The notes under the pieces are model-generated. The model searched no databases and was not told the DNA's origin. It was given only the letters and a program-made list of their open reading frames with translations. Positions 12,982 through 25,554 of a stretch of DNA of 64,000 nt are shown one piece after another. This stretch comes from Agarivorans albus. GTDB lineage: Bacteria > Pseudomonadota > Gammaproteobacteria > Enterobacterales > Celerinatantimonadaceae. Positions within the stretch are counted from its first letter, which is position 1. Each line of letters begins with the position of its first letter. The stretch covers positions 371,001 to 435,000 of the forward strand of contig NZ_AP023032.1 of the NCBI RefSeq assembly GCF_019670105.1. The letters run 5' to 3'. A program made the translations under genes and the position numbers.

Positions 12982-13568
12982 CTCCAGTAAATCATATTGT
13001 ATTATTAATAGGGGCTAAGCATATACCTCAGTCACTTTTTAAGCAATTGGCCAGCGGCTTTTATTTATCTTAAAGTACGAATTATTTGATTTTGATCGTA
13101 CAAAAGCCGTCCTTTATTGCCCTCTAAGCAGAAATTCCATAAAGCCAACAAACCTTAATTTTCCGCTTTTAGTACTTAGTTCGCTTTTTATTACAAGCGC
13201 TTTGGTGCCGACCTAGCGACTAGAATGCGAGGGTTGGAACCGTCAAGGTTGATTCTTCATTTTTGTGCCTCAGCCATGAGCTCAAGCTTGGTTTATGACG
13301 TTGAGGCAATGATGAAGGGCCTATACCACATTGCGATGATTGCGGTTAAAAAGTCAGATACTCCAGAACATTTAGGGGCGATTAACGAAGGAGGACACTT
13401 GTTCCTAGCGATAATCATAACAATCAAGACATTGTTATTTACGTAGTACACCGTGCCGGGAATTAAGCTTGTGTTATTCAACCAAGAACTGATTTTTGGT
13501 TGAATACCTTTGGTTTATTAAGTGTGCATTGTTGCTAATGCGCTAATCTCCTAAGACTCTGCTCTGCC
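12982..13568. other. Intergenic region without a recognisable gene
   Basis: 587 bases between the dehydrogenase (start at 12981, minus) and the Lrp-family regulator (end at 13569, minus). Short open frames exist on both strands at about 13225-13480 (73 and 62 codons), but they overlap each other antiparallel and neither resembles a known family. The AT-rich part next to 12981 should hold the dehydrogenase promoter. I see no RNA gene here. Confidence 0.5.
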
Positions 13569-14051
13569 TTACTCTAAGGGGATGGAGTAGCTGTTCTTTA
13601 TCTCTTTAACCGAGATATTGGAGTGCAAGGCACTTACACCGTTTACTCTTCGCAATTGGCTGATGCGTTCGTAATATTCATCTAAGTCTTTGGCAATTAC
13701 TTGCACCATGTAATCAGCCCCACCTGCGATGCAATGGCACAGTGGGATCCACTCGGTGGCTGATACAAATTCTTCGAAGTTATCGGTGTTTTCAACATCA
13801 TGACTACCTAGTGAAACTAAGGTAAAGCCTACCATGCTAAAGCCCAGTTTTTTGCGATTAAGCACTGCGGTGTATTCACTGATGTAATTGGCTTCTTCGA
13901 GTCTTTTCCAGCGCCGCCAACAAGGTGTTTCACTTAAGTTAACCTTTTCAGACAGCTTACTATTGCTAATGCGACCTTCACGTTGAATATGCTTCAGGAT
14001 CGCAATATCGGTATCATCAAGTATTTCTTGGGTGTTTTCTTGTCTTCTCAT
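13569..14051 (-). CDS. Lrp/AsnC family transcriptional regulator
   Basis: 160 residues. An N-terminal helix-turn-helix (about residues 12-60, LDDTDIAILKHIQREGRISNSKLSEKVNLSETPCWRR...) precedes a RAM ligand-binding domain (CHCIAGGADYMVQVIAKDLDEYYE). Lrp/AsnC proteins sense amino acids. It is divergent from a LysE-type exporter gene with about 140 bases between the starts; this regulator-exporter pairing suggests it controls amino acid export. Confidence 0.92.
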   Translation of the reverse strand: MRRQENTQEILDDTDIAILKHIQREGRISNSKLSEKVNLSETPCWRRWKRLEEANYISEYTAVLNRKKLGFSMVGFTLVSLGSHDVENTDNFEEFVSATEWIPLCHCIAGGADYMVQVIAKDLDEYYERISQLRRVNGVSALHSNISVKEIKNSYSIPLE

Positions 14052-14189
14052 ATTTAATTTTAAAATATTCTGCCTTTAATAGAGTGTATTTTAACGCATA
14101 AAGCAAAATTCTTCCTGCATAAGCAAATAAACTATTCATCTCGCTATTAAAACTATGCTGAATATCGAATTTGTGTGGAGTGGATGTTT

Positions 14190-14792
14190 ATGAGTGTTCA
14201 AATTGCAGTCGCTTTTTTGTTGTTTGCTACATCCATGTCTATTACACCTGGAGCTGGTAATTTAGCTTTATTGGGCATATCCAATCGCTTTGGCTTTGCT
14301 GCAGCTTTGCCATTTATTGCAGGCACCTCATTCGGAGTGCTGATTGTATTTGCGGGCACCAGTGCAGGGCTAATTAGCTTACTTACCGCCAATCCTGAGT
14401 TATATAGCGCTCTCAAATACTTGGGAGCAGCTTACTTATTGTATATTGCTTGGGGCATCAGCCAGCATAGTGTGGCCGAGCAAGATAGAGTAGAGCACTC
14501 AGCGGGGTTTGGGGCTGGTGCCCTAATTCAGGTGTTGAACCCAAAAGCTTGGATTGCTGCCATGACCGTCTTTTCGCAATTTACCGATGTGTCGGGAAAC
14601 TACCTATTGCAGGTGAGTGTTATCATCGTAGCTTTTTTAGTTGTCACAACTTTGTGTACCATGGTGTGGGCCTACTTTGGCGCGGCGCTAAAACGCTTAC
14701 TAAAATCCTCTTCGCAAATGCTGATTGTTAATCGCTGCTTAGGGCTTACTTTGGCGGCAACAGTGGTATTTATGTTGAGCCAAGGTCATTAA
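14190..14792 (+). CDS. LysE/RhtB family amino acid exporter
   Basis: 200 residues with six predicted membrane segments. The N-terminal block ITPGAGNLALLGISNRFGF and the central GALIQVLNPKAWIAAM (NPK motif) are LysE/RhtB hallmarks. The ATG at 14190 lies 9 bases after GGAG; in-frame upstream starts at 14175 and 14184 are too close to that site. It probably exports an amino acid or analogue across the inner membrane under control of the divergent Lrp-type regulator. The specificity is not readable. Confidence 0.88.
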   Translation: MSVQIAVAFLLFATSMSITPGAGNLALLGISNRFGFAAALPFIAGTSFGVLIVFAGTSAGLISLLTANPELYSALKYLGAAYLLYIAWGISQHSVAEQDRVEHSAGFGAGALIQVLNPKAWIAAMTVFSQFTDVSGNYLLQVSVIIVAFLVVTTLCTMVWAYFGAALKRLLKSSSQMLIVNRCLGLTLAATVVFMLSQGH

Positions 14793-14819
14793 TTTAACAG
14801 GTTCTATTGCTTCGAGCGC

Positions 14820-15731
14820 TTAATGCTCAGCGTATTTCCAGTGGCTAATTGCTTGAATGTGTTCAGGATGAATACCACAGCAACCCCCTATGATGGTGGC
14901 TCCAAGCTGGTGCCACTGTTTTACAAACTCTAGGTACTCTTCAGCCGATACAGCATTAGTTTGATTTAATGAGTTATTGGCTTTATGACCCGCTTGAATG
15001 GGACCAAAGCTATTGGCATAAGCGCCTATTTCTAACTCTTTTCCGAACGCTTTACTTAGCGCCTTAGTCTGCTTTATTGCCTCGGCCATAACCTCAGGAA
15101 TAGAACAGTTAAATAGCATACCATCAGCGCCGGTATCGCAAACTTGTTTTACTGTGTCAGCAAGTAACTCGCCAGACCTTAGGCTTGCCTGCTCATTGGG
15201 GACGTCTTGTAGGGTGAAAGAGTAGTACTTTTTCTTAGTGCTGTTTTTAAGTGCCTGTTGAATAGTACTAAACTCCTCAATGCTAGAAATTGTTTCGGCA
15301 ATCCACATATCTACATGGGGTTCTTGAGCTGCTACCAAAGTGTCGAGTATGCCCATTGCTTGCTTTGGTTCAAACAGATCGGGTCGATAACTGCCTAGTA
15401 CCGGTGGGATGGCCCCAGCAACCGTAATCGGGCGCTGGCTGTTGCTTATAGCACACTTTGCTACAGAGTTTGCGATCTTAGCCGCTAGTTGCGCAAGTAC
15501 TGCCCCTTGGCGTTCGAATAATTCCTGACCTAGATGAAAAGGCACACAAGCGTAGCTGTTTACAGTAATTATTTCGGCGCCCGCATCTATAAAGTTTTGA
15601 TGAGCTTGGCGTACTAAGGAAGGTGATTCGATCAGTGCTTGAGCACTCCATAAAGGTTGTGAAAAAGGCGCTCCCATTCTTTTAAGTTCTCGGCCCATTC
15701 CACCATCTAACACCGCTACATGTTTACTCAT
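14820..15731 (-). CDS. mmuM: Homocysteine S-methyltransferase family protein
   Basis: 303 residues from the ATG at 15731 (MSKHVAVLDGGMG); the open frame extends to 15818, but that extension lacks family similarity. The zinc ligands of the family are visible: a Cys in MLFNCSIPE and the paired cysteines of GGCCGIHPEH near the C-terminus. The best fit is MmuM-type S-methylmethionine:homocysteine methyltransferase, which makes methionine in the cytoplasm. Another methyl donor is possible; no mmuP permease is adjacent. Confidence 0.85.
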   Translation of the reverse strand: MSKHVAVLDGGMGRELKRMGAPFSQPLWSAQALIESPSLVRQAHQNFIDAGAEIITVNSYACVPFHLGQELFERQGAVLAQLAAKIANSVAKCAISNSQRPITVAGAIPPVLGSYRPDLFEPKQAMGILDTLVAAQEPHVDMWIAETISSIEEFSTIQQALKNSTKKKYYSFTLQDVPNEQASLRSGELLADTVKQVCDTGADGMLFNCSIPEVMAEAIKQTKALSKAFGKELEIGAYANSFGPIQAGHKANNSLNQTNAVSAEEYLEFVKQWHQLGATIIGGCCGIHPEHIQAISHWKYAEH

Positions 15732-16346
15732 TACTTCTATACCACCAGTACGCATTACCCTAATTACCATAAATGAGTCTAATTCAGATAATGCAACTAA
15801 ATAATGAAAGTTTTTCATGTTGATGAAGCAGGCTTTACCTCTAAGATCTGTTCGATTAAAAGCTCCGAATTATAAGTCATCGTGCTTTAGTCTAAGCATC
15901 GCTTAAGGATAGAATCATTTAGAAAAATGAAGGCAGCCATTTCGTGGAATCTCTTGTAGCTTTCAATTTTAGCAAGCTTAGCGCGGCCGAGAATTCCGCT
16001 TAACAGTGAAATTACTTATAGTTTTGGTGTCAGAGATCGAACTTTTATCTATATTTTTCAATTTCTTATTTCTTATTTCTTATTTCTTATTGGTTTTTGG
16101 TTTAGGGTGAAAATAACAATTTTTGCTATGTTTGAGCGTCATGCTTTAGTGTCAAAAATCTCTTTTTTAAAACTCTTTCTAAGTCAGTTTGTCTAGGGGG
16201 ATTGCTCGCCAGTTAACCGCAACATTGCTTTTTTCTCTAAATATAGAGCCCAGCTCCATTCAATTCGTACACTGTTAATAAACGAAACGCATGCGAATGA
16301 ATGCTTAGCGATTCCAATTCGTTGGTTTCAACTTACAAAATAATTT
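15732..16346. other. Intergenic region containing a heptanucleotide tandem repeat
   Basis: About 600 AT-rich bases without a supportable gene. It contains four tandem copies of ATTTCTT (16061-16088) and T-rich tracts. The promoter of the methyltransferase gene should lie at its left end. I see no hairpin strong enough to call a terminator. Confidence 0.5.
16061..16088. repeat. Tandem repeat, 4 x ATTTCTT
   Basis: Four perfect head-to-tail copies of the 7-mer ATTTCTT in an intergenic region, followed by ATTGG. A short repeat of this kind can vary in copy number by slippage. Confidence 0.9.
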
Positions 16347-16790
16347 TCAGTCCAATCGAGTAATAAAGGTTTGCTCGTCATCCACAAAAGCGACAAAGCC
16401 GCCGTGGTAGATAAACACCCGTCCGCGTCCTTCAACGAGGCAAGCAAGCTGTGGGTTTAAATCTTCTTCGTTATATTGGCTTTGAAAAGTGCCAGTATCG
16501 GTGATAATTCCGCTGAACGTAGGCAAGTATCCATGGGTACGCTTGGCTTGATCAATCAGGCTCAGCTCGCTGGCAGTAGAGAAGCATGAGGGGATCGCAC
16601 CCGCTTCTTCGATAAACAGTGTTTTCAGTTCTTCAAAAGCTGTAATCACCAGCCAGTCGATGCCGTTAACATGATGGATAAACATAGAGTTTCTCGGTAG
16701 TTCTGATGCTGTGATTTTATCACTATCAGGGGAAGAGCTTAGTAGAGATTTAGTTGCTAAAGGCGGTATCTCTGTAACATTTCCGGACAT
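16347..16790 (-). CDS. Hypothetical protein
   Basis: Up to 147 residues from ATG 16790; a shorter start at 16685 (MFIHHVNGIDWLVI) is equally possible because neither has a clear ribosome binding site. There is no signal peptide or membrane segment. The sequence looks like a soluble alpha/beta protein with a C-terminal VFIYHGGFVAFVDDEQTFITRLD. I do not recognise the family. It lies immediately left of the integron cassette array in the opposite orientation, where an integrase gene would be expected, but it has no tyrosine recombinase features. Confidence 0.55.
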   Translation of the reverse strand: MSGNVTEIPPLATKSLLSSSPDSDKITASELPRNSMFIHHVNGIDWLVITAFEELKTLFIEEAGAIPSCFSTASELSLIDQAKRTHGYLPTFSGIITDTGTFQSQYNEEDLNPQLACLVEGRGRVFIYHGGFVAFVDDEQTFITRLD

Positions 16791-17239
16791 TCACTAGGTC
16801 AACTTGAAACACGTTTTTGCCCCAAAGTTTGCTAGGTCTTCTTACGAACAACATCGGCACACACGTCTTTTACCATACCAAAACTAATGGTTTTACATCT
16901 CGACTTTTCTAGGTAACTAGAGAATTTGGTAGTAGCTTAGCCAAAAGGGTTTACGTTCTTTTTAATGTGATTTTATACAGTGTTATTTGGATTTTCAGTT
17001 TTTGCCCAATAAACTTGTTTGATCTTTGCGCGTCTTGCCTTGAGGTGGAAAAATTACAAGAGTAGTATCAATAACTTAGCTTAGTGTTGAAATAAATAAT
17101 AGGTTTATTAACTGTGCATGCGCATTTTGCCCAAAGGTGTATTGAGCCTTTTTCTTGTTTCTTCATTAAATTCAAAAGATTAAGTATGCGCGTTTTCACT
17201 GGTCTAATGAGGTAAACGCACATGCGCAATATACAAATG
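16791..17239. other. Gene-free region upstream of the cassette array (possible attI remnant)
   Basis: No open frame of useful length. Three ATGCGC motifs (near 17118, 17187 and 17222) precede GTTATAA at 17239-17245, the likely left boundary of the first cassette, and there are loosely similar TTTTGCCCAAAG-type segments at about 16810, 16999 and 17125. It could contain the attI site and the promoter that drives the cassettes, but neither can be proved by reading. Confidence 0.4.
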
Positions 17240-17257
17240 TTATAAGGCTAAAAGGTT

Positions 17258-17524
17258 ATGGTTAAATCATCTAAAGCAATTTTCTTAATTAGCACATTAA
17301 TCTCATTGTTAGTCTGTTCTGGTATTTTGTATATTACTTGGCAACACAACCCTCAATGCGAGTTTCATTGTAACAACCAAATAAATTGGTTAGCGTGGTT
17401 GCCTTACGGTTTGATTTCAGGTGCTTTAAGTTTTTTGTTAATTGTAGGCTTAGCTTTTGGCGCTAATACATTAATAAAAGCATTGGTTATAGCGCCATAT
17501 AACAAGGCAATTAAGCGGGACTAA
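17258..17524 (+). CDS. Cassette 1: small two-helix membrane protein, unknown function
   Basis: 88 residues with hydrophobic segments at about 7-27 and 45-70 and a loop containing two cysteines (QCEFHCNNQ). The ATG at 17258 follows TAAGG at a spacing of about 10 bases. Its last codons run into attC1, so the array is compact here. I do not recognise the family. Being first in the array it would be the cassette closest to any upstream promoter. Confidence 0.7.
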   Translation: MVKSSKAIFLISTLISLLVCSGILYITWQHNPQCEFHCNNQINWLAWLPYGLISGALSFLLIVGLAFGANTLIKALVIAPYNKAIKRD

Positions 17525-17597
17525 AAACAGTTTGCTTAGTTTCGCTTCGCTTCACATTTTAGCAAACAATTTTTAGCCCCTTATTGGGGCGTTATAT
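17497..17597 (+). other. attC site 1
   Basis: Starts with ATATAAC (17497) and ends with its exact complement GTTATAT (17591-17597). The inner part contains an imperfect palindrome (TTTGCTTAG ... TTAGCAAAC) and GCCCCTTATTGGGGC before the right box. 101 bp. Confidence 0.92.
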
Positions 17598-17616
17598 GTA
17601 TATAGAGGAAGCAAAG

Positions 17617-17856
17617 ATGGATTTCCCTAGTAATGAAGATTGCTATGATGCAATGTACCAATTCGCTTCTTACTACATGGAAGGTGAAGTGAAAGAAAAG
17701 TGGTTGGATATAATTGTTGATGGCCTTAAAACTGGCAGAAGTGCGCCAGGGAAAGGATTTCTATACGATCTAGACAAAGCGATTAAAGTGTCTGGAAAAC
17801 CTAACATGCCAAAGCGTAAAGAGCTGTATCAGCTTATTTGTGAAGCATCAATTTAA
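17617..17856 (+). CDS. Cassette 2: small hypothetical protein
   Basis: 79 residues, soluble, no membrane segment. ATG 17617 is preceded 8 bases upstream by AGAGGAA; earlier in-frame starts (17584, 17596) lie inside attC1 and are unlikely. It is rich in charged residues (YYMEGEVKEKWLDIIVDGL, KAIKVSGKPNMPKRKELYQLI). The family is not recognised. Confidence 0.72.
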   Translation: MDFPSNEDCYDAMYQFASYYMEGEVKEKWLDIIVDGLKTGRSAPGKGFLYDLDKAIKVSGKPNMPKRKELYQLICEASI

Positions 17857-17859
17857 TAC

Positions 17860-17994
17860 ACATAACAAACGCATCAAGTCACCGCTGAAAAGCGCGGTTG
17901 GGACATCAAAACTACCGGCGATTTAGTTTTGGTGCTTCGCAAATTTTAAACCAATCGCCGCTACGTTTTGCTGCCCCTTATGCGGGCGTTAGAG
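17860..17994 (+). other. attC site 2
   Basis: ACATAAC (17860-17866) followed by AAACGCATCAAG, and GCCCCTTATGCGGGC leading to GTTAGAG (17988-17994). At 135 bp it is the longest of the set; the arms AAAACTACCGGCGATT and AATCGCCG pair inside. The last base of the right box deviates from the Y of the consensus. Confidence 0.88.
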
Positions 17995-18008
17995 TACAGG
18001 TAGGGAAA

Positions 18009-18506
18009 TTGCGTAATCGACGATTTTTCAACGTTAGTAAAGCTGAGAATGAAGCCTTAAGCGCACAGTTCTCAGCTGTGGTTTCTGAACTGGAAAGCCA
18101 TGAAGCAAGAGCCGTTTCCGTGTTTGACCATTGGCTCTCACAAAATGAAGCGCTGCGTGAATTGGACGATGTGCCTGGTTCTGTGCAGCAAGAAAGAGAT
18201 GCTCGTTTGCACCAATTTGCACTGGAGCTTACGGCTCAGTTCAATGGCTTCCTGGTGAAGTTCATCGGTCGCAATAAGCAACGCATCACTTTCAGAAAGT
18301 TCGCAAATGACCATGGGCGCGCTAAATCCGTGAAGCCCCTGTCTTACAGGTACGGAGACATGTGTCGTTTTATCGTGGTTCTGCCAGATCTTGATGCTGT
18401 TTATGTGGAAGGCAGCGACTTCACTCACCACATCTTTGGTCAGGAAAACAAATATCTGAATGCAGTTCAGCAAATCGCACAAAACACCGGGCTGCATGTA
18501 CTCTAA
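18009..18506 (+). CDS. Cassette 3: hypothetical protein
   Basis: 165 residues from TTG 18009; the open frame extends back to 17898, but that part lies inside attC2. A Shine-Dalgarno-like AGGTAGGG (17998-18005) precedes it. The protein is soluble with a long helical N-terminal half (residues about 10-75, Glu/Ala/Gln-rich) and a C-terminal half with beta-like segments (MCRFIVVLPDLDAVYVEGSD). I recognise no family. The stop codon lies inside attC3. Confidence 0.62.
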   Translation: MRNRRFFNVSKAENEALSAQFSAVVSELESHEARAVSVFDHWLSQNEALRELDDVPGSVQQERDARLHQFALELTAQFNGFLVKFIGRNKQRITFRKFANDHGRAKSVKPLSYRYGDMCRFIVVLPDLDAVYVEGSDFTHHIFGQENKYLNAVQQIAQNTGLHVL

Positions 18507-18605
18507 CAAGGCAAATCAGCAAGCACTCGTCGCTTCGCTCCTCGCGTGGACAAAGGCCACAACGCTGCGAGCCGCTGGCCTTTGCCCCTGTTTGCGGCGT
18601 TATGT
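18501..18605 (+). other. attC site 3
   Basis: CTCTAAC (18501-18507) followed by AAGGCAAATCAGCAAG, and GCCCCTGTTTGCGGC leading to GTTATGT (18599-18605). The internal arms GTGGACAAAGGCC and GGCCTTTGCCCC pair imperfectly. 105 bp. Confidence 0.9.
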
Positions 18606-18608
18606 GTA

Positions 18609-19046
18609 ATGGAAGCTTCGGTGTTAAATCATAATTCAAAGTTTCAAATAATTAACTTTATCGAACAACACAAATTAAATGGTGTTATGAATAACACTAA
18701 ATGGAATAAGCTGTTTCATGATCTTAATGAAGTCGATGAACTAATAAGTTTCAAAGTTACTTATATTGATGGTACTACTTGGCCAGAGCCAGAAGCCACT
18801 TTTCCATTTACGTCAGAGTTAGCTCAAATATGGGGTAACTTCTTGGCTCTAGAATTCATTGATATCAATGCCAAAATTAGTCACTCTAGAGGCGCTTTAC
18901 TAAACGATGAAGTAGTGGATCATATTGGTAAAATAATTCAAATATGCATTGATAACTCAGCTAAATTCTCGATAACAGAAGAAGGTGTTAGAATTTACGG
19001 GTATTTAAGACATAGCGACAGCGTCCAATTATACAATTACACATAA
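18609..19046 (+). CDS. Cassette 4: hypothetical protein, possibly DUF6678-like
   Basis: 145 residues from ATG 18609, right after attC3. GTG 18621 (after GGAAG) and ATG 18687 are alternatives. The core NNTKWNKLFHDLNEVDEL ... VTYIDGTTWPEPEATFPF resembles, from memory, small proteins grouped as DUF6678 that occur in integron cassettes; this family call is tentative. It is soluble and acidic. Function unknown. Confidence 0.6.
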   Translation: MEASVLNHNSKFQIINFIEQHKLNGVMNNTKWNKLFHDLNEVDELISFKVTYIDGTTWPEPEATFPFTSELAQIWGNFLALEFIDINAKISHSRGALLNDEVVDHIGKIIQICIDNSAKFSITEEGVRIYGYLRHSDSVQLYNYT

Positions 19047-19143
19047 CAAGCAGTTAAAGGATTGGACGTCTAAAGTTTGGCTGACGTTCGTTCCTCACAA
19101 ATTATAGCCAAGCTTTAGCCGCCCCTTAACGTGGGCGTTATAA
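19041..19143 (+). other. attC site 4
   Basis: ACATAAC (19041-19047) followed by AAGCAGTTAAAG, and GCCCCTTAACGTGGGC leading to GTTATAA (19137-19143). The internal arms AAAGTTTGGCT and AGCCAAGCTTT pair. 103 bp. Confidence 0.91.
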
Positions 19144-19157
19144 GCCTAAAGGTACAT

Positions 19158-19628
19158 ATGAGTAATCTTCAGCATAAATGGATGTTCGGTGGGGCAATTC
19201 TGCTTGTTGCAATTTCAAGCCTTATGATGGCTACTGGCGTTATGAAACCTTGGAATCCAATACCAATTTATCAAGTAATTCTTGCTTGGATCGTTTCCTT
19301 TTTCTATTTGTTATTTATTCCAATAATTTACCTGATTGAATTTAAGCTAATCTCTCAAAGTAAGCACTTTCTTAAAATTGTAACGGGCTTAACATTTTTG
19401 CTTTCACTTCTAAGTATCAAATATTTTTGGGTCTCTTGGGAATACGGGTATAAATATCAAGGTGAGTTACACACTAAAATAGTAGCTATAGAAAATTTAG
19501 TTGGATTTTCTGGGGTATTAGGAATTTGCTTCTGGGCTATCAAAAAAGAGAGTCAAATCGCAGGATATGTCGCCAACTTATTATTTTTTTCTATATTAGC
19601 TTGGTGTGCATTTCCATATTTAGGCTAA
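19158..19628 (+). CDS. Cassette 5: polytopic membrane protein, unknown function
   Basis: 156 residues. The ATG at 19158 has AAAGG at a good distance. There are four to five hydrophobic segments (about 9-28, 39-63, 73-92, 107-124, 132-152). No motif ties it to a transporter family. The stop lies just before attC5. Confidence 0.7.
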   Translation: MSNLQHKWMFGGAILLVAISSLMMATGVMKPWNPIPIYQVILAWIVSFFYLLFIPIIYLIEFKLISQSKHFLKIVTGLTFLLSLLSIKYFWVSWEYGYKYQGELHTKIVAIENLVGFSGVLGICFWAIKKESQIAGYVANLLFFSILAWCAFPYLG

Positions 19629-19647
19629 ATGCCTTAGTGTAATCGGC

Positions 19648-19746
19648 TTATAACAAGTCGTTTAAAAGGACAAAAAACAGTTGGCTTTTGCTCCTTCGTC
19701 GCTTATTTTAGCCAACAACTTTTTGCCTCTTAACGAGGCGTTAGGT
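19648..19746 (+). other. attC site 5
   Basis: TTATAAC (19648-19654) followed by AAGTCGTTTAAAAG, and GCCTCTTAACGAGGC leading to GTTAGGT (19740-19746). The internal arms AACAGTTGGCTTTT and TTAGCCAACAAC pair. 99 bp. Confidence 0.9.
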
Positions 19747-19770
19747 ATTTATCAAGAAGGAGTCTAAATT

Positions 19771-20103
19771 TTGGTATCAGTTGTATTGTGGTTAATAGGA
19801 TTAATAGCAATTATATTTTATGGTGGAAAGAGGGTCTATGCTCTATACAAAGCAGAGAAGCCACCTAACGGAGAATTTCTTAAGCAAGGAACTATTCTAA
19901 TTTTTTACTCAACGTTAGTGGTAGGTGCGGCTCAATTTTTAAATGATGCTACAACTACTTATAATGTTAATACCCCTGAAGTTTCCCAGTTCTGGATACT
20001 TGTAGGGCTTTTTGCTTCTTACCTAAAGTATTTAGCTCCTTTTGTGTTTGCTGCAATAGGTGTAAATATGGTTTCTCATTCATTGGCAAATAAAAATACC
20101 TAA
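19771..20103 (+). CDS. Cassette 6: three-helix membrane protein, unknown function
   Basis: 110 residues starting with TTG at 19771, which is supported by an excellent AGAAGGAG at 8 bases. Hydrophobic segments at about 4-22, 40-58 and 78-100. The stop codon overlaps the left box of attC6. The family is not recognised. Confidence 0.7.
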   Translation: MVSVVLWLIGLIAIIFYGGKRVYALYKAEKPPNGEFLKQGTILIFYSTLVVGAAQFLNDATTTYNVNTPEVSQFWILVGLFASYLKYLAPFVFAAIGVNMVSHSLANKNT

Positions 20104-20200
20104 CAAGGCCATTAAGAGCGGACCCGCAACAGCTTGCTCGGTTCCGCTTCGCTTCACATTTTAGCAAGCTATTACTTGTCTGCTTATGGCGGCGTTAAGT
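20098..20200 (+). other. attC site 6
   Basis: ACCTAAC (20098-20104) followed by AAGGCCATTAAGAG, and TGCTTATGGCGGC leading to GTTAAGT (20194-20200). The internal arms AACAGCTTGCT and TTAGCAAGCTATT pair. 103 bp. Confidence 0.9.
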
Positions 20201-20502
20201 GCAAAGCCCCAAAGTCTCAAAAAACGTAGAGCTTGGGTAAATAAATTGCAGTATGTATCCATTCGCAAAATGGGCGGGTGCTTCAACAGGTTCGGTGTTC
20301 ATACAGCCTGCTAAAGCGAGATGGTGGTGCCCAGGCATAGCCAATCGCATTCCAAAGGTTGGGTAGTTAGATCCTCCACAATTCGTCGTTGTAGGTTGGC
20401 TCAATCTATCAAATACGTGCGGTATTTGTAGTGCTTTCAAATAGTAGGTTTTACCTGCATACTGCGGTCAAAAGGGCAGTTTTTTGTTCAATGGTATTGT
20501 CC
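20201..20502. other. Cassette 7: no clear plus-strand gene
   Basis: A 300-bp cassette. The longest frame is on the minus strand (20195-20440, 81 codons, TTG start, running into attC6). A plus-strand ORF of only 37 codons exists at 20253-20366 (ATG). The minus-strand reading includes SNYPTFGMRLAMPGHHHLAL, which looks protein-like, but I cannot name it. It is either a reverse-oriented gene or a non-coding cassette. Confidence 0.5.
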
Positions 20503-20631
20503 ACTTAACAAAGCCATCTTGCATCGCCCGCAAGCGGGCTGGACAAATTTTCCGTGGTTCGTTTTGTGCTTTTCGCTTACGCTGGCACAAATCAAACCAC
20601 TCCAAATTTGCCGCAAATGGCGGCGTTATGT
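20503..20631 (+). other. attC site 7
   Basis: ACTTAAC (20503-20509) followed by AAAGCCATCTTGCATC, and TTGCCGCAAATGGCGGC leading to GTTATGT (20625-20631). The internal arms GGACAAATTTTCCGTGGTTCGTTTTG and its partner CAAATCAAACCACTCCAAATTTG form the palindrome only imperfectly. 129 bp. Confidence 0.88.
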
Positions 20632-20656
20632 GTATAAGTACAGGAGTTATATCAAA

Positions 20657-20839
20657 GTGAATGACGCAAATATCGAAATGGTCTTGGCTTCAATTATTAA
20701 TAAATCTAAAAAAATAGAATACAACGATAATAATGGTGAAATATATATTCACTTGAATAACTTGGCAGTGGGGCAACGTGACTGCATCGTGACACTAGGT
20801 CAATTAAAAACGAGTATCGAATTATCATTAAAAAATTAG
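20657..20839 (+). CDS. Cassette 8: very small hypothetical protein
   Basis: 60 residues starting with GTG at 20657, about 10 bases after CAGGAG; the longer open frame from 20519 lies within attC7. Soluble, with a Lys/Asn-rich middle and the C-terminal segment DCIVTLGQLKTSIELSL. The family is not recognised. Confidence 0.58.
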   Translation: MNDANIEMVLASIINKSKKIEYNDNNGEIYIHLNNLAVGQRDCIVTLGQLKTSIELSLKN

Positions 20840-20856
20840 ATTTGTTTGCCAAACAC

Positions 20857-20956
20857 ACATAACAAACAAATCAACGAATGGACTTAAAAAGCTTGGCTCA
20901 GCTCGTGGCTCGCTTTAATAGCCAAACTTTTTAAGCCCGTTATTTGGGCGTTATGA
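20857..20956 (+). other. attC site 8
   Basis: ACATAAC (20857-20863) followed by AAACAAATCAACG, and GCCCGTTATTTGGGC leading to GTTATGA (20950-20956). The internal arms AAAAAGCTTGGCT and AGCCAAACTTTTT pair. 100 bp. Confidence 0.9.
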
Positions 20957-20967
20957 ATCAGGTGGAA

Positions 20968-21610
20968 ATGGATAAAGTAATTGTTTCAATTTATCTTTGG
21001 ATAAAGAGGTACACGCATCCACTCAGGGTTTTGGGAGGCGTGTTTTTTGGTTTCGCATTATTAGCTGGGGTATTTTTGGATTGCGGGTAAAGAGATTGAG
21101 CCAGTAGCGTTCCTACTTGGTCTTTTATCATCGCTATTCCTCGCTAGTCCTTCGGTTGCTCAATACTTTGTACCAGACAGAAAAGCTGTACGTGACATGA
21201 CTTTTGAAGAGGTACTTGATTTTATAACTACAACAGATGCGAAAGTTGACTGGAAAGGAATATCTACGGATTGGTCAAGTGAATATTTCCTAACTGAAGA
21301 CCCACGCCTTAGGTTTAGAATGAACTATCTCGAAGATGGTTTACAAAATAGCAATTTTGTTGAGCCTTGGGCGAATTGTCATGCAGATACTAAAGCTCGA
21401 GGTTATTGGTGTGATTTGTATTATGACGGCTCTTTTATCGATAGGTTGATCTTAGTCGCTGTTGATGGTGGTCGTTCCTTACTTCCAGCTCCTGAAGCTG
21501 GAACACTTGAAGTTCTAAAATACAATTATTGTGTTGCTGAAATACACGATACATTGAACACTCTGACAAAGTACATGAAACGTTCAAAGCTAGCTGTACG
21601 AGATTCATAA
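20968..21610 (+). pseudogene. Cassette 9: frameshifted gene for a membrane-anchored hypothetical protein
   Basis: Two open segments belong together. ATG 20968 (after GGTGG) opens a frame with one hydrophobic segment that stops at 21088. The next frame continues without a break as KEIEPVAFLLGLLSSLFLAS, a second hydrophobic segment, then PSVAQYFVPDRKAVRDMTFEEVLDF and a soluble domain to 21610. Removing one T from the TTTTT run at 21073-21077 fuses the frames into a continuous protein of about 213 residues. An isolated start at 21197 would lose the membrane part. The cause may be a real mutation or a sequencing error. Confidence 0.72.
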
Positions 21611-21628
21611 CAAGGCGTTAACACCAAC
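21605..21628 (+). other. Truncated attC site (3' end of array)
   Basis: TCATAAC (21605-21611) followed by AAGGCGTTAACACC looks like the left half of an attC. No matching palindrome or terminal GTTRRRY box is found in the following 130 bases, so the array appears to end in a truncated site. Confidence 0.7.
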
Positions 21629-21861
21629 TGTTCCATACTTTCGCTAATCCGAAACACCATTGAATAAGTCATCACCCAAACACGCTTTTGTCCAAAAGTG
21701 AGTTAGACTCTTTGTATCCTTCTTTTACCCTAACTTCTATCTATTTGTGAAGTACGTCCCTAAATATGGGGTGTAGTTTTAAAGTAGCGAAAAGAATTCC
21801 AAAGAAACTGAAACCTACAATAAGTCACTGATTTAGATAAATCCTTGCTTCATTGCTCATG

Positions 21862-21897
21862 CTGTATATACTAACAGTGTGCTGTATAAACTTACAG
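21862..21897 (+). promoter_or_regulatory. Two tandem LexA (SOS) boxes upstream of lexA
   Basis: CTGTATATACTAACAG (21862-21877) and CTGTATAAACTTACAG (21882-21897) both match CTGT-N8-ACAG exactly and are spaced 20 bases start to start. The second reaches to within 7 bases of the lexA ATG and overlaps its ribosome binding site region. This is the arrangement expected for LexA autorepression. Confidence 0.96.
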
Positions 21898-21904
21898 GTA
21901 GACT

Positions 21905-22552
21905 ATGAAGCCCTTAACACCCCGTCAAACAGAAGTATTTGAATTAATTCGTCGTCATATTTCCGAAACGGGTATGCCGCCAACCCGTGCAGAGATCGCT
22001 AAAGAATTAGGCTTTCGTTCCGCTAATGCGGCAGAAGAGCACCTAAGAGCACTTGCTAAGAAAGGGGCTATTGAGATGATCCCTGGTGCTTCGCGTGGTA
22101 TTCGCATTAGTGAAGAGTATTTGCCAGCCAGCGCTAATGAGCCAGTAGCCGAAGACTTAGAACCCGGTTTACCTTTAATTGGCCAAGTGGCTGCCGGCGA
22201 GCCTATTTTGGCGCAGGAGCATGTAGAATCGCACTATGCGGTAGATGCTAACTTGTTTAATCCTCATGCTGATTATTTACTGCGGGTGCAGGGAATGAGT
22301 ATGAAAGACATCGGCATTATGGATGGTGACTTGTTAGCAGTGCACAAAACCAATGATGTTCATAATGGACAAGTAGTGGTGGCACGTTTAGAAGACGATG
22401 TTACAGTTAAGCGTTTTGAGCGCGACGGTAAAATGGTTTACTTGCACCCAGAGAATGAAGAGCTCTCAACTATTGAAGTTGATTTAGAATATCAAAGCAT
22501 CGAAATCGAAGGCTTGGCGGTAGGTATTATTCGCACTGCCGATTGGATGTAA
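21905..22552 (+). CDS. lexA: SOS repressor LexA
   Basis: 215 residues. The N-terminal winged helix (residues 1-70) binds SOS boxes. The autocleavage site is Ala97-Gly98 in QVAAGEP, with the catalytic dyad Ser132 (QGMSMKD) and Lys169 (DDVTVKRF). RecA filaments on single-stranded DNA trigger self-cleavage and derepress the SOS regulon. Two perfect SOS boxes precede the gene. Unlike E. coli, dinF is not directly downstream: the cytochrome oxidase operon intervenes and a DinF-type MATE gene follows it at 30420. The gene abuts the integron cassette array. Confidence 0.98.
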
Positions 22553-22583
22553 GCCCTATATAGCAATAAGTTCCGCCCTTTTT

Positions 22584-22614
22584 AAGCCCAAATCAGCCCG
22601 ATTTGGGCTTTTGT
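22584..22614 (+). terminator. Rho-independent terminator after lexA
   Basis: The arms AAGCCCAAATC (22584-22594) and GATTTGGGCTT (22600-22610) pair perfectly around a 5-base loop; TTTTG follows. Confidence 0.88.
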
Positions 22615-22819
22615 CGTTAGCATCACATCTTTTGTGTTTATCCATAAAAATCTCAACAATATATTTACATTTCTTTAACTTAGGGGTTAATTTATAAGCA
22701 GTAGCTTGTATTTAGCTGTTGCTGTCTACTACTTTTGGGGTGGGGGATTTCCCTTTTTCTGCAGCTACTTTCCTAGTTTGGAGAGTTGTTGTCGTTGGCT
22801 ACTAGCAAAGGAGAGCGCT

Positions 22820-23950
22820 GTGGGCCGATGGATTCAGCTAATAATGCTGACATTCTTTTCGTCGCAAGTATTTGCGCAAGAAATGTCATTCAACTTACGT
22901 CCGGGTGTTACCGCCATTAGTGAGCAGGTTTATGGCCTGCACATGACAATTTTTTATATTTGTTGTGCTATTGGGGTGCTGGTGTTTGGCGCCATGTTCT
23001 GGGCTATTTTTCATCATCGCAAATCTAAAGGGGCCAAGCCGGCTCAATTTCATGAAAGTACCAAAGTAGAAATTATTTGGACCATCGTTCCTTTCATTAT
23101 ATTGATAGGGATGGCGATTCCTGCCACTAAAACCCTGCTGGCCATGGAAGATCCTTCCGATGCCGATATCACGATTCAAGTAACAGGTTCCCAGTGGAAG
23201 TGGCATTACAAATACTTTGACCGTGAACTGGAATTCTACAGTGTGCTGGCATCTGATATGGATGAAGTTAACGGCAAGCTGGAAAAACGCAAAAACTACT
23301 TGCTTGAAGTAGACCGTCCGCTGGTATTGCCCATCGATAAAAAAGTACGCTTTTTGATGACTTCGGAAGATGTTATCCACTCCTGGTGGGTACCGGATTT
23401 TGCAGTTAAAAAAGACGCCAACCCAGGTTTTATTAATGAGGCTTGGACCATCATTGATAAACCCGGCATATACCGCGGCCAGTGTGCTGAGTTATGTGGT
23501 AAAGACCACGGCTTTATGCCGATTGTGGTTATCGCTAAAACGCAGGCCGATTATGATGTTTGGTTAGCCGAGGAAGAAGCCGCTTATCAAGCCAAGCAAG
23601 CTCAAGAGTTAGAGCTGGTTGCTATGACTATGGAGCAAGACGAACTGATGTCGCTGGGCAAAAAAGTCTACGACAAAAGCTGTGCGGCTTGCCATCAAGT
23701 TAACGGTGAAGGCTTACCAGGTGTGTTCCCTGGTTTGAAAGACAGTCCAATCGCTATTGGTGATGTGGGCAAACATATTGAAGTAGTTGTGAATGGTGTA
23801 CCGGGCACTGCGATGCAAGCCTTTGGTAAACAGCTAGGTTTAAAAGAGCTGGCTGCCGTAATTACTTACGAGCGTAACGCTTGGGGTAATGATACCGGTG
23901 ATTTAGTGCAGGCCAAGGATGTTGTGGCCGTGCAAAACGCAGCGCAGTAG
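22820..23950 (+). CDS. coxB: Cytochrome c oxidase subunit II with fused cytochrome c domain (caa3 type)
   Basis: 376 residues from GTG 22820, which has AAGGAG at 6 bases; the open frame upstream (to 22706) is not supported. A signal peptide ends near FAQ, then come two membrane helices, a cupredoxin domain with CuA ligands ([16 protein letters not shown]) and a C-terminal cytochrome c domain with the heme motif CAACH and axial Met region GTAMQAF. It receives electrons from cytochrome c on the periplasmic side and passes them to CoxA. First gene of the oxidase operon. Confidence 0.96.
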
Positions 23951-23961
23951 GGAGAGAGATA

Positions 23962-25554
23962 ATGAGCACGATTAGTGACGTTCATGCTGACCATGATGAG
24001 CACCATCACGGTGCCCCGCGCGGTTTAATGCGTTGGGTATTAACCACTAACCACAAAGACATTGGTTCAATGTATTTGTGGTTTAGTTTTGCCATGTTTA
24101 TTACCGGTGGCGCGATGGCGATGGTGATTCGCGCCGAGCTGTTCCAACCAGGTTTACAGTTAGTAGAACCTAACTTTTTCAATCAAATGACCACCATGCA
24201 CGGCTTAATCATGGTGTTTGGTGCAGTAATGCCGGCCTTTACCGGTTTGGCTAACTGGCTGATTCCGATGATGATTGGGGCGCCAGATATGGCCTTGCCA
24301 CGCATGAATAACTGGAGCTTTTGGATTTTACCTTTTGCTTTCACCATGCTGTTAGCCTCGTTGTTTATGGAAGGTGGTGGCCCTAACTTTGGTTGGACTT
24401 TCTACGCGCCGCTTTCTACTAACTACAGCCCAGACAGTACCGCTTTGTTTGTGTTCTCGGTGCATATTATGGGGATTAGTTCGATTATGGGGGCGATCAA
24501 TGTGATTGTTACCATTATGAACTTACGTGCACCCGGCATGACTTACATGAAGTTACCGCTGTTTGTATGGACTTGGTTTATCACTGCATTTTTGCTGATT
24601 GCTGTGATGCCGGTATTAGCGGGTGCAGTGACCATGGTGCTTACAGATAAGTATTTTGGTACGTCGTTTTTTGATGCTGCTGGTGGGGGAGACCCCGTAT
24701 TGTTCCAGCACATATTCTGGTTCTTTGGCCACCCTGAAGTTTACATTATGATTTTGCCGTCATTCGGCATTATCTCGGCGATTGTTCCAGCCTTCTCTCG
24801 TAAAAGGTTATTTGGTTATGCCTCGATGGTTTACGCCACTGCATCTATTGCTGGTTTAAGCTTCATTGTGTGGGCGCACCATATGTTTACTACTGGTATG
24901 CCGGTTGCGGCTGAGTTGTTCTTCATGTTTTGCACCATGCTGATCTCGGTGCCTACTGGGGTGAAGGTATTTAACTGGGTAGCCACCATGTGGCGCGGCT
25001 CAATGACCTTTGAAACGCCGATGTTATTCGCACTGGCCTTTATTGTGCTGTTCACCATTGGTGGTTTCTCGGGATTGATGTTGGCGATTACGCCGGTGGA
25101 TTTCCAATATCACGATACCTATTTTGTGGTGGCACACTTCCATTATGTACTAGTAACAGGCGCGGTATTCTCGATTATGGCCGCTGCTTATTATTGGCTA
25201 CCTAAGTGGACCGGTAATATGTACGACGAAGGCCTGGGCCGGCTACATTTCTGGTGTTCGCTTATCTCGGTAAATGTGTTGTTCTTCCCTATGCACTTCT
25301 TAGGCTTAGGTGGCATGCCACGGCGTATTCCTGACTATGCGCTGCAGTTTGCCGATGTTAACGCCATTGTGAGTATTGGTGGCTTTGCCTTTGGTTTGTC
25401 GCAATTCATCTTCTTGTACATGGTGATTAAGTGTATTCGAAGCGGTGAACCTGCGCCGGCTAAACCTTGGGAAGGCGCAGAGGGCTTAGAATGGGATGCA
25501 TTGCCATCGCCAGCGCCTTACCACAGTTTCTCTACACCGCCGGAGATTAAATAA
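23962..25554 (+). CDS. coxA: Cytochrome c oxidase subunit I
   Basis: 530 residues, twelve membrane helices. Heme and CuB ligands are visible: MHGLIMVF (low-spin heme His), [14 protein letters not shown] (CuB His with cross-linked Tyr), WAHHMFTTG (CuB His pair) and the C-terminal VVAHFHYVL (heme a3 and heme a His). HPEVY and the helix VI glutamate indicate an A-type oxidase. It reduces oxygen to water and pumps protons. It begins 11 bases after coxB with GGGAGAGAG as the ribosome site. Confidence 0.98.

Follow-up and report, generated by a model that had tools for sequence, protein, structure and literature searches.

As described, an integron consists of a single integrase, a single attI site and a single array of cassettes. 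The stretch of the Agarivorans albus chromosome analysed here, 64 kb long and called the window below (C1:371001-435000 of a single-contig genome of 4.79 Mb), carries an array of nine cassettes beside lexA, with an attI site at its left end and no integrase gene (intI) adjoining it. We put at roughly two in three the probability that this array is an integron platform with its own attI and without intI, one of ten intI-less copies in the genome, and that its cassettes were likely inserted in trans.

The closest described systems share some of these properties. Clusters of attC sites without an integrase nearby (CALINs), like the window array, hold several attC-bounded cassettes in a genome that has an intI elsewhere, whereas the window array starts from an attI that can be recognised as such and is one of a repeated set of attI platforms. 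Two papers describe CALINs as mobilisable in trans (PMC12444791, PMC11389934, excerpts), and the CALINs of Xanthomonas (PMC12444791) and Shewanella (PMC9229058) lie at several loci, with no attI mentioned at them in the excerpts of these papers. Sedentary chromosomal integrons, for example those of Vibrio, share with this genome an attI, an attC array and intI genes bearing an SOS-box-like site, but here attI and intI are uncoupled and ten intI-less platforms with few cassettes each occupy one chromosome. According to excerpts of one study, IntIA of V. cholerae uses a plasmid-borne attIA, and a promoter near attIA drives the expression of cassettes that have just been inserted (PMC8191803). 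The delta-attI gene cassettes of mobile integrons, as excerpted, also place an attI away from its intI and use it in recombination; there, however, attI pieces end single cassettes within one array, whereas here attI heads separate arrays (PMC12901181). By analogy, the attI modules may also be likened to miniature inverted-repeat transposable elements and their helper transposons, in that a short dispersed non-coding repeat would depend on an enzyme made elsewhere, although we identified neither terminal inverted repeats nor target duplications at the attI modules. A literature search at title and abstract level, with subscription papers mostly outside it, found no report of dispersed attI sites without intI, which does not establish their absence from print.

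The array beside lexA and its attI-C site

The 280 bp to the left of cassette 1 are a repeat present at several loci of the genus. Over its final 146 bp this repeat shares 84% identity with the DNA immediately upstream of intI-C, the gene for a complete third integrase found in a sister genome (G006), and the flank is 77% identical to a site beside an integrase in a member of another family (G122), an integrase that is itself 72% identical to IntI-C. When the attI-C copies are aligned, they agree up to ..AAATG/TT and diverge beyond it. Because of this identity beside intI-C and the match of the copies up to the crossover, we assign positions 16962-17242 to an attI-C site; by these alignments the array begins at the crossover, and cassette 1 starts exactly there. 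The preliminary description had placed the start of the array at 17239, which is the attI crossover, but had not seen the attI itself. The absence of an integrase that it reported agrees with our tblastn searches, in which IntI-A, IntI-B and the sister-genome IntI-C gave no meaningful match across the 64-kb window. The array has the eight attC sites and the missing intI by which CALINs are defined (two or more attC, no intI nearby), and it also has the attI site and the attC sites with R and L boxes of an integron, without an intI adjacent to attI. Since the left flank is attI-C, the array does not start at a non-attI site, as would an insertion at attG. It reads as an integron platform that lacks only intI, not as a bare attC cluster. 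At the left edge of the attI-C site is a degenerate LexA-box-like sequence, ATGTGATTTTATACAG, with a mismatch. A consensus scan for the cassette promoter Pc gave no rightward promoter-like site in 16962-17242 and one leftward promoter-like site at 16998-16970.

Nine plus-strand cassettes of 325-667 bp, with crossovers read from the sequence, fill positions 17240-21617; the nine cassettes previously described are thus confirmed, within a narrower size range than the 0.2-0.75 kb given for them. Between them lie eight complete attC sites, each about 100-138 bp long (17498-20957, plus strand). Folding, stem covariation and a covariance model all bear out these eight sites, as first proposed. The bottom strand folds more stably than the top in all eight (DNA parameters). 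In an alignment of 16 sites (eight from the window, six from integron A, one from integron B and one from G005), 98.8% of 164 R/L stem cells pair and 31 have changed on both sides; none of 500 shuffles reached any of five measures of covariation, which also stood above slid partners, the R/L stem scored being drawn from the same 16 sequences. A covariance model with this stem given by hand, replacing an RNAalifold version with only 5 pairs, recovered all eight window sites in a genome-wide search (E 5.6e-23 to 1.6e-8), a search that is partly circular in that the model was built on the same 16 sites. An Rfam scan of 15000-24000 gave no attC-type match at E up to 1. A looser attC scan, its matches filtered on TAACA...GTTA ends, found a1 and the site at the lexA locus of G005, both missed by the stricter scan, together with many false sites. 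The ninth site is an attC collapsed to its ends, TAACAAGGCGTTAAC, at about 21607-21621. It looks as if its hairpin had been deleted; at the lexA locus of G005, an attC of full length stands ahead of this right flank (L113 16536-16622).

Dispersed attI platforms and their integrases

A census of this genome and six others of the genus found attI at 73 places (63 attI-A and 10 attI-C), with six to thirteen per genome; 32 of 95 attI-A matches had been dropped before the count as opposite-strand or near-duplicate matches to an internal palindrome, and 8 of 18 matches to the window left flank as weak or outside the attI part. No intI lies within 2.5 kb at 68 of the 73 places. At 37 of these 68, a model attC follows on the same strand within 3 kb downstream, compared with 0.42% of random positions, and the 37 is a minimum because only 129 of the 147 model attC matches, without the 18 weakest, entered the count. 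This genome holds eleven attI copies, one at integron A and ten intI-less, of two types (Table 1), and attC follows nine of the ten. Searches by tblastn with the three integrases detected no trace of intI at the window, at eight attI-C loci, at the lexA locus of G005, or, in this genome, at the six attI-A platforms with attC and the copy at 861k. A clean empty attI site was sought and not found, and the flanks of G005 at platform X and at 848k were too diverged for a junction. At three loci (L165 and L238 in G003, L164 in G005) about 1.3 kb of extra DNA, perhaps an insertion sequence, seems to separate attI from its left edge or from intI.

Two intact integrase genes lie elsewhere in this genome, as the preliminary description had considered possible. 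IntI-A and IntI-B are 46% identical, each heads its own cassette array, and both genes carry a CTGT-N8-ACAG box just upstream of the start. G005 has two IntI-B-type integrases (C1:1674906 and 3942304), 93-94% identical to IntI-B of this genome. In attI-A copies the left edge coincides with the CTGT-N8-ACAG motif or falls close to it, at a fixed spacing. Among 22 intI-less attI-A copies examined, this LexA-box-like site is perfect in 8 and at 7/8 or better in 14, where random windows give 0.0018 and 0.0096, respectively. We do not claim extra selection on the box, as the copies, about 75% identical overall, keep it about as well as the rest.

A wider search covered 148 genomes of the order, with up to four candidates scored per genome, so that its counts are minima. 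At least 10 of the 148 had attI matches, comprising six of this genus, G096 from another genus of the same family (attI-A), G092 and G122 from another family (attI-C), and G018 (one short weak match). G092 has at least three attI-C copies (L250, L251 and L252) with no intI in the 16 kb around each, one of which is followed by attC in the scan. Because these three copies belong to another family, the pattern of intI-less attI may extend beyond the genus.

Cassette turnover and the proposed filling of platforms

At platform X (compared with G001) and platform Y (compared with G001, G003 and G006), synteny at 88-97% runs up to the attI crossover, gives way to unrelated DNA and then resumes. The same pattern of flank, break and flank is found at 2408k, 3090k, 3663k, 2137k and 848k in relatives with attI there, the exceptions being short attC-sized matches and the 2137k locus of G006, where the comparison stopped short of the right flank. 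The cassette block at 2408k, for example, is 0.8 kb long in this genome, against 2.75 kb in G001 and 10.4 kb in G003. Comparison of 55 attI places, of which no more than six adjoin an intI and a few belong to genomes beyond the genus, gave 54 different first-cassette sequences, and an ATG lies within 80 nt of the crossover at 53 of the 55. The sole shared first cassette is that of L176 (G005) and L253 (G096). Two further cassettes have copies in both an integron and a platform. Integron A of G006 and the intI-less attI-A of its platform X share a 514-bp cassette at 100% identity, placed first at the latter, with both ends at crossovers; in this genome, a 392-bp cassette of the attI-C platform X, again with crossover edges, matches a cassette of G003 integron A at 99.2% identity. 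Judged by sequence, these copies are the products expected of an IntI acting on a non-adjacent attI.

In the mechanism we propose, IntI, its gene probably induced by way of the LexA-box-like site that precedes it, would recombine cassette attC sites with every cognate attI, and one enzyme would therefore fill many landing sites. Under SOS control, IntI-A would act in trans to place cassettes at its cognate attI copies, as IntI-C would formerly have done. The attI-C platform of the window would have been filled by its cognate IntI-C, since lost here save for a fragment, and its cassettes would therefore now be either immobile or dependent on IntI-A or IntI-B for movement. More broadly, we lean slightly towards a distributed integron, in which attI would be a dispersed, LexA-box-tagged repeat family of six to thirteen sites per genome, loaded by one or two SOS-inducible integrases; a cell would therefore have many first-position cassettes rather than one, and CALINs elsewhere may be platforms whose attI has gone unrecognised. 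Our reading starts from what the DNA itself displays, namely the attC sites, the identity and dispersal of attI, the lack of intI at most copies, the replacement of cassettes and the two cassette copies, and from these we infer service in trans. That step is weakest for the window's own array, because its matching integrase is only a fragment here and its cassettes have no near copy.

Several observations weigh against a platform serviced in trans. IntI-C survives in this genome only as a fragment of 57 aa (56%; L227 6372-6202, minus strand, about C1:1852k), which makes the present activity of the window array uncertain. An attC is found about 2.4 kb from the fragment (L227 8788-8880, plus strand, within G000:C1:1852-1855k), and the two together read as the relic of an integrase cognate to the window attI. 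G001 has kept 12 attI places with no intact intI. Model attC sites are missing within 3 kb at 31 of the 68 intI-less attI copies, although the looser scan places attC after some of them, and in G002 only one of six attI copies has attC. Comparison with 41 other blocks turned up no near copy of any window cassette, the matches being confined to attC a2, and the shared stretches other than the 514-bp and 392-bp cassettes mostly lack clean crossover ends.

The preliminary description had called the array either a relic or served in trans, an alternative that holds as far as it goes and that overlooked the array's own attI-C and the genus-wide set of platforms. Each platform might instead be a once complete integron that lost its intI independently and left a fossil array without further exchange. 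Loss of intI is attested by the intI-C fragment with its attC (1854k) and by a 76-aa intI-A fragment in G001, and integrase loss or translocation is the origin of CALINs given in an excerpt of published work (PMC11389934). The tested platforms, however, bear no trace of intI; their attI-A left edges share the CTGT-N8-ACAG position, where separate deletions should break at differing places; and the cassettes are entirely different at orthologous platforms that all lack intI, so that cassettes must have changed after any loss of the gene. We therefore regard independent decay as unlikely. The known route to CALINs by insertion at attG, which is described in excerpts of two papers (PMC12444791, PMC12901181), would have the cassettes enter the region upstream of lexA at an attG-like site, with the likeness to attI due to chance or later rearrangement. 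An attC at 1509k in this genome, with no attI-A, -B or -C beside it, would suit such a route. For the window array it is largely refuted, and we think it very improbable, given that 146-280 bp of the left flank align with attI-C, several copies giving E 2.4e-38 or better, that the match ends at the crossover and that the flank also matches the sites beside integrases in G006 and G122.

Cassette blocks might instead have been exchanged between platforms and strains by ordinary homologous recombination acting through the attI repeats and the conserved flanks. This would account for a feature that cassette insertion alone does not explain, the variation in attI type between genomes that share their left flank at platform X, at lexA and at 2408k, and for the 1.96-kb stretch that two platforms of G003 share at 99% identity with edges that are not crossovers. 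It sits poorly with the two shared cassettes, which end at crossovers on both sides among unlike neighbours, and with the variety of first cassettes, and as an alternative to integrase action in trans we rate it quite improbable, below independent decay of complete integrons.

Cassette contents, the right flank and significance

Table 1. Features of the window array, with the integrase genes and attI platforms of the same genome (C1 and k, chromosome positions; others, window positions).
Feature	Position	Strand	Description
IntI-A	C1:3343913-3344854		intact; above TIGR02249 cut-off
IntI-B	C1:3897618-3898553		intact; above TIGR02249 cut-off
attI-C platforms without intI	window, 1123k, 2088k		attC present
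attI-A platforms without intI	847k, 2137k, 2408k, 3089k, 3555k, 3662k		attC present
attI-A partial copy	861k		no attC seen
attI-C type site	16962..17242	+	crossover between 17239 and 17240; no adjoining intI
Cassette 1	17240..17591	+	88-aa predicted membrane-like protein; attC a1 17498-17599
Cassette 2	17592..17988	+	79-aa open reading frame from 17617; attC a2 17857-17994
Cassette 3	17989..18599	+	165-aa reading from 18009; attC a3 18501-18607
Cassette 4	18600..19137	+	145-aa DUF6678 protein, PF20383 E 2.4e-25; attC a4 19041-19145
Cassette 5	19138..19740	+	156-aa hydrophobic protein; attC a5 19648-19747
Cassette 6	19741..20194	+	110-aa hydrophobic protein; attC a6 20098-20202
Cassette 7	20195..20625	+	no plus-strand open reading frame of at least 60 aa; attC a7 20504-20633
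Cassette 8	20626..20950	+	60-aa reading from GTG 20657; attC a8 20857-20957
Cassette 9	20951..21617	+	137-aa open reading frame from 21197; collapsed attC about 21607-21621
Right-end segment	21611..21705	+	97% over 91 bp to the end of integron B; also at other array ends of the genus
lexA	21905..22552	+	neighbour gene; two LexA-box-like sites upstream

The cassettes had been put forward as a place to find new functions. Only one of the nine has a protein with a Pfam family over the cut-off (DUF6678), and we see more interest in the set of intI-less attI sites. The 137-aa protein of cassette 9 matches PADLOC PDC-S50 (E 1.7e-7, part of the model covered), the only PADLOC match, and the remaining proteins have weak matches or none: the family matches of the cassette 1 protein all fall below cut-off, and family searches of the cassette 3 product, Pfam and PADLOC among them, gave no match. 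The gene of cassette 9 is possibly broken, because the sole open reading frame of at least 60 aa begins 246 bp inside the cassette. In cassette 7 an open reading frame of 81 aa is present on the minus strand only.

On the right, the segment of about 95 bp that follows the last attC also trails the last attC at unlike places in the genus (L018 14886-14796; G003:C1:3365877; G003:C1:2431315; G005:C1:2611062). One idea, and no more than that, is that this segment may represent the right half of the attI platform in its original, empty state. The closest named relative of the neighbouring LexA is that of Agarivorans sp. Toyoura001 (93%). The array does not recur at the lexA locus of two sister genomes: that of G005 has an attI-A-like site (88%) and a different set of cassettes that ends in a last attC before an unchanged right flank, and that of G003 is missing the stretch corresponding to window positions 13100-21835.

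If our reading is true, scattered attI sites without intI would spread cassette capture over the chromosome, and CALINs would gain an origin besides integrase loss or stray insertion. Dispersed attI sites also make the question of whether integrase-less arrays are alive directly testable.

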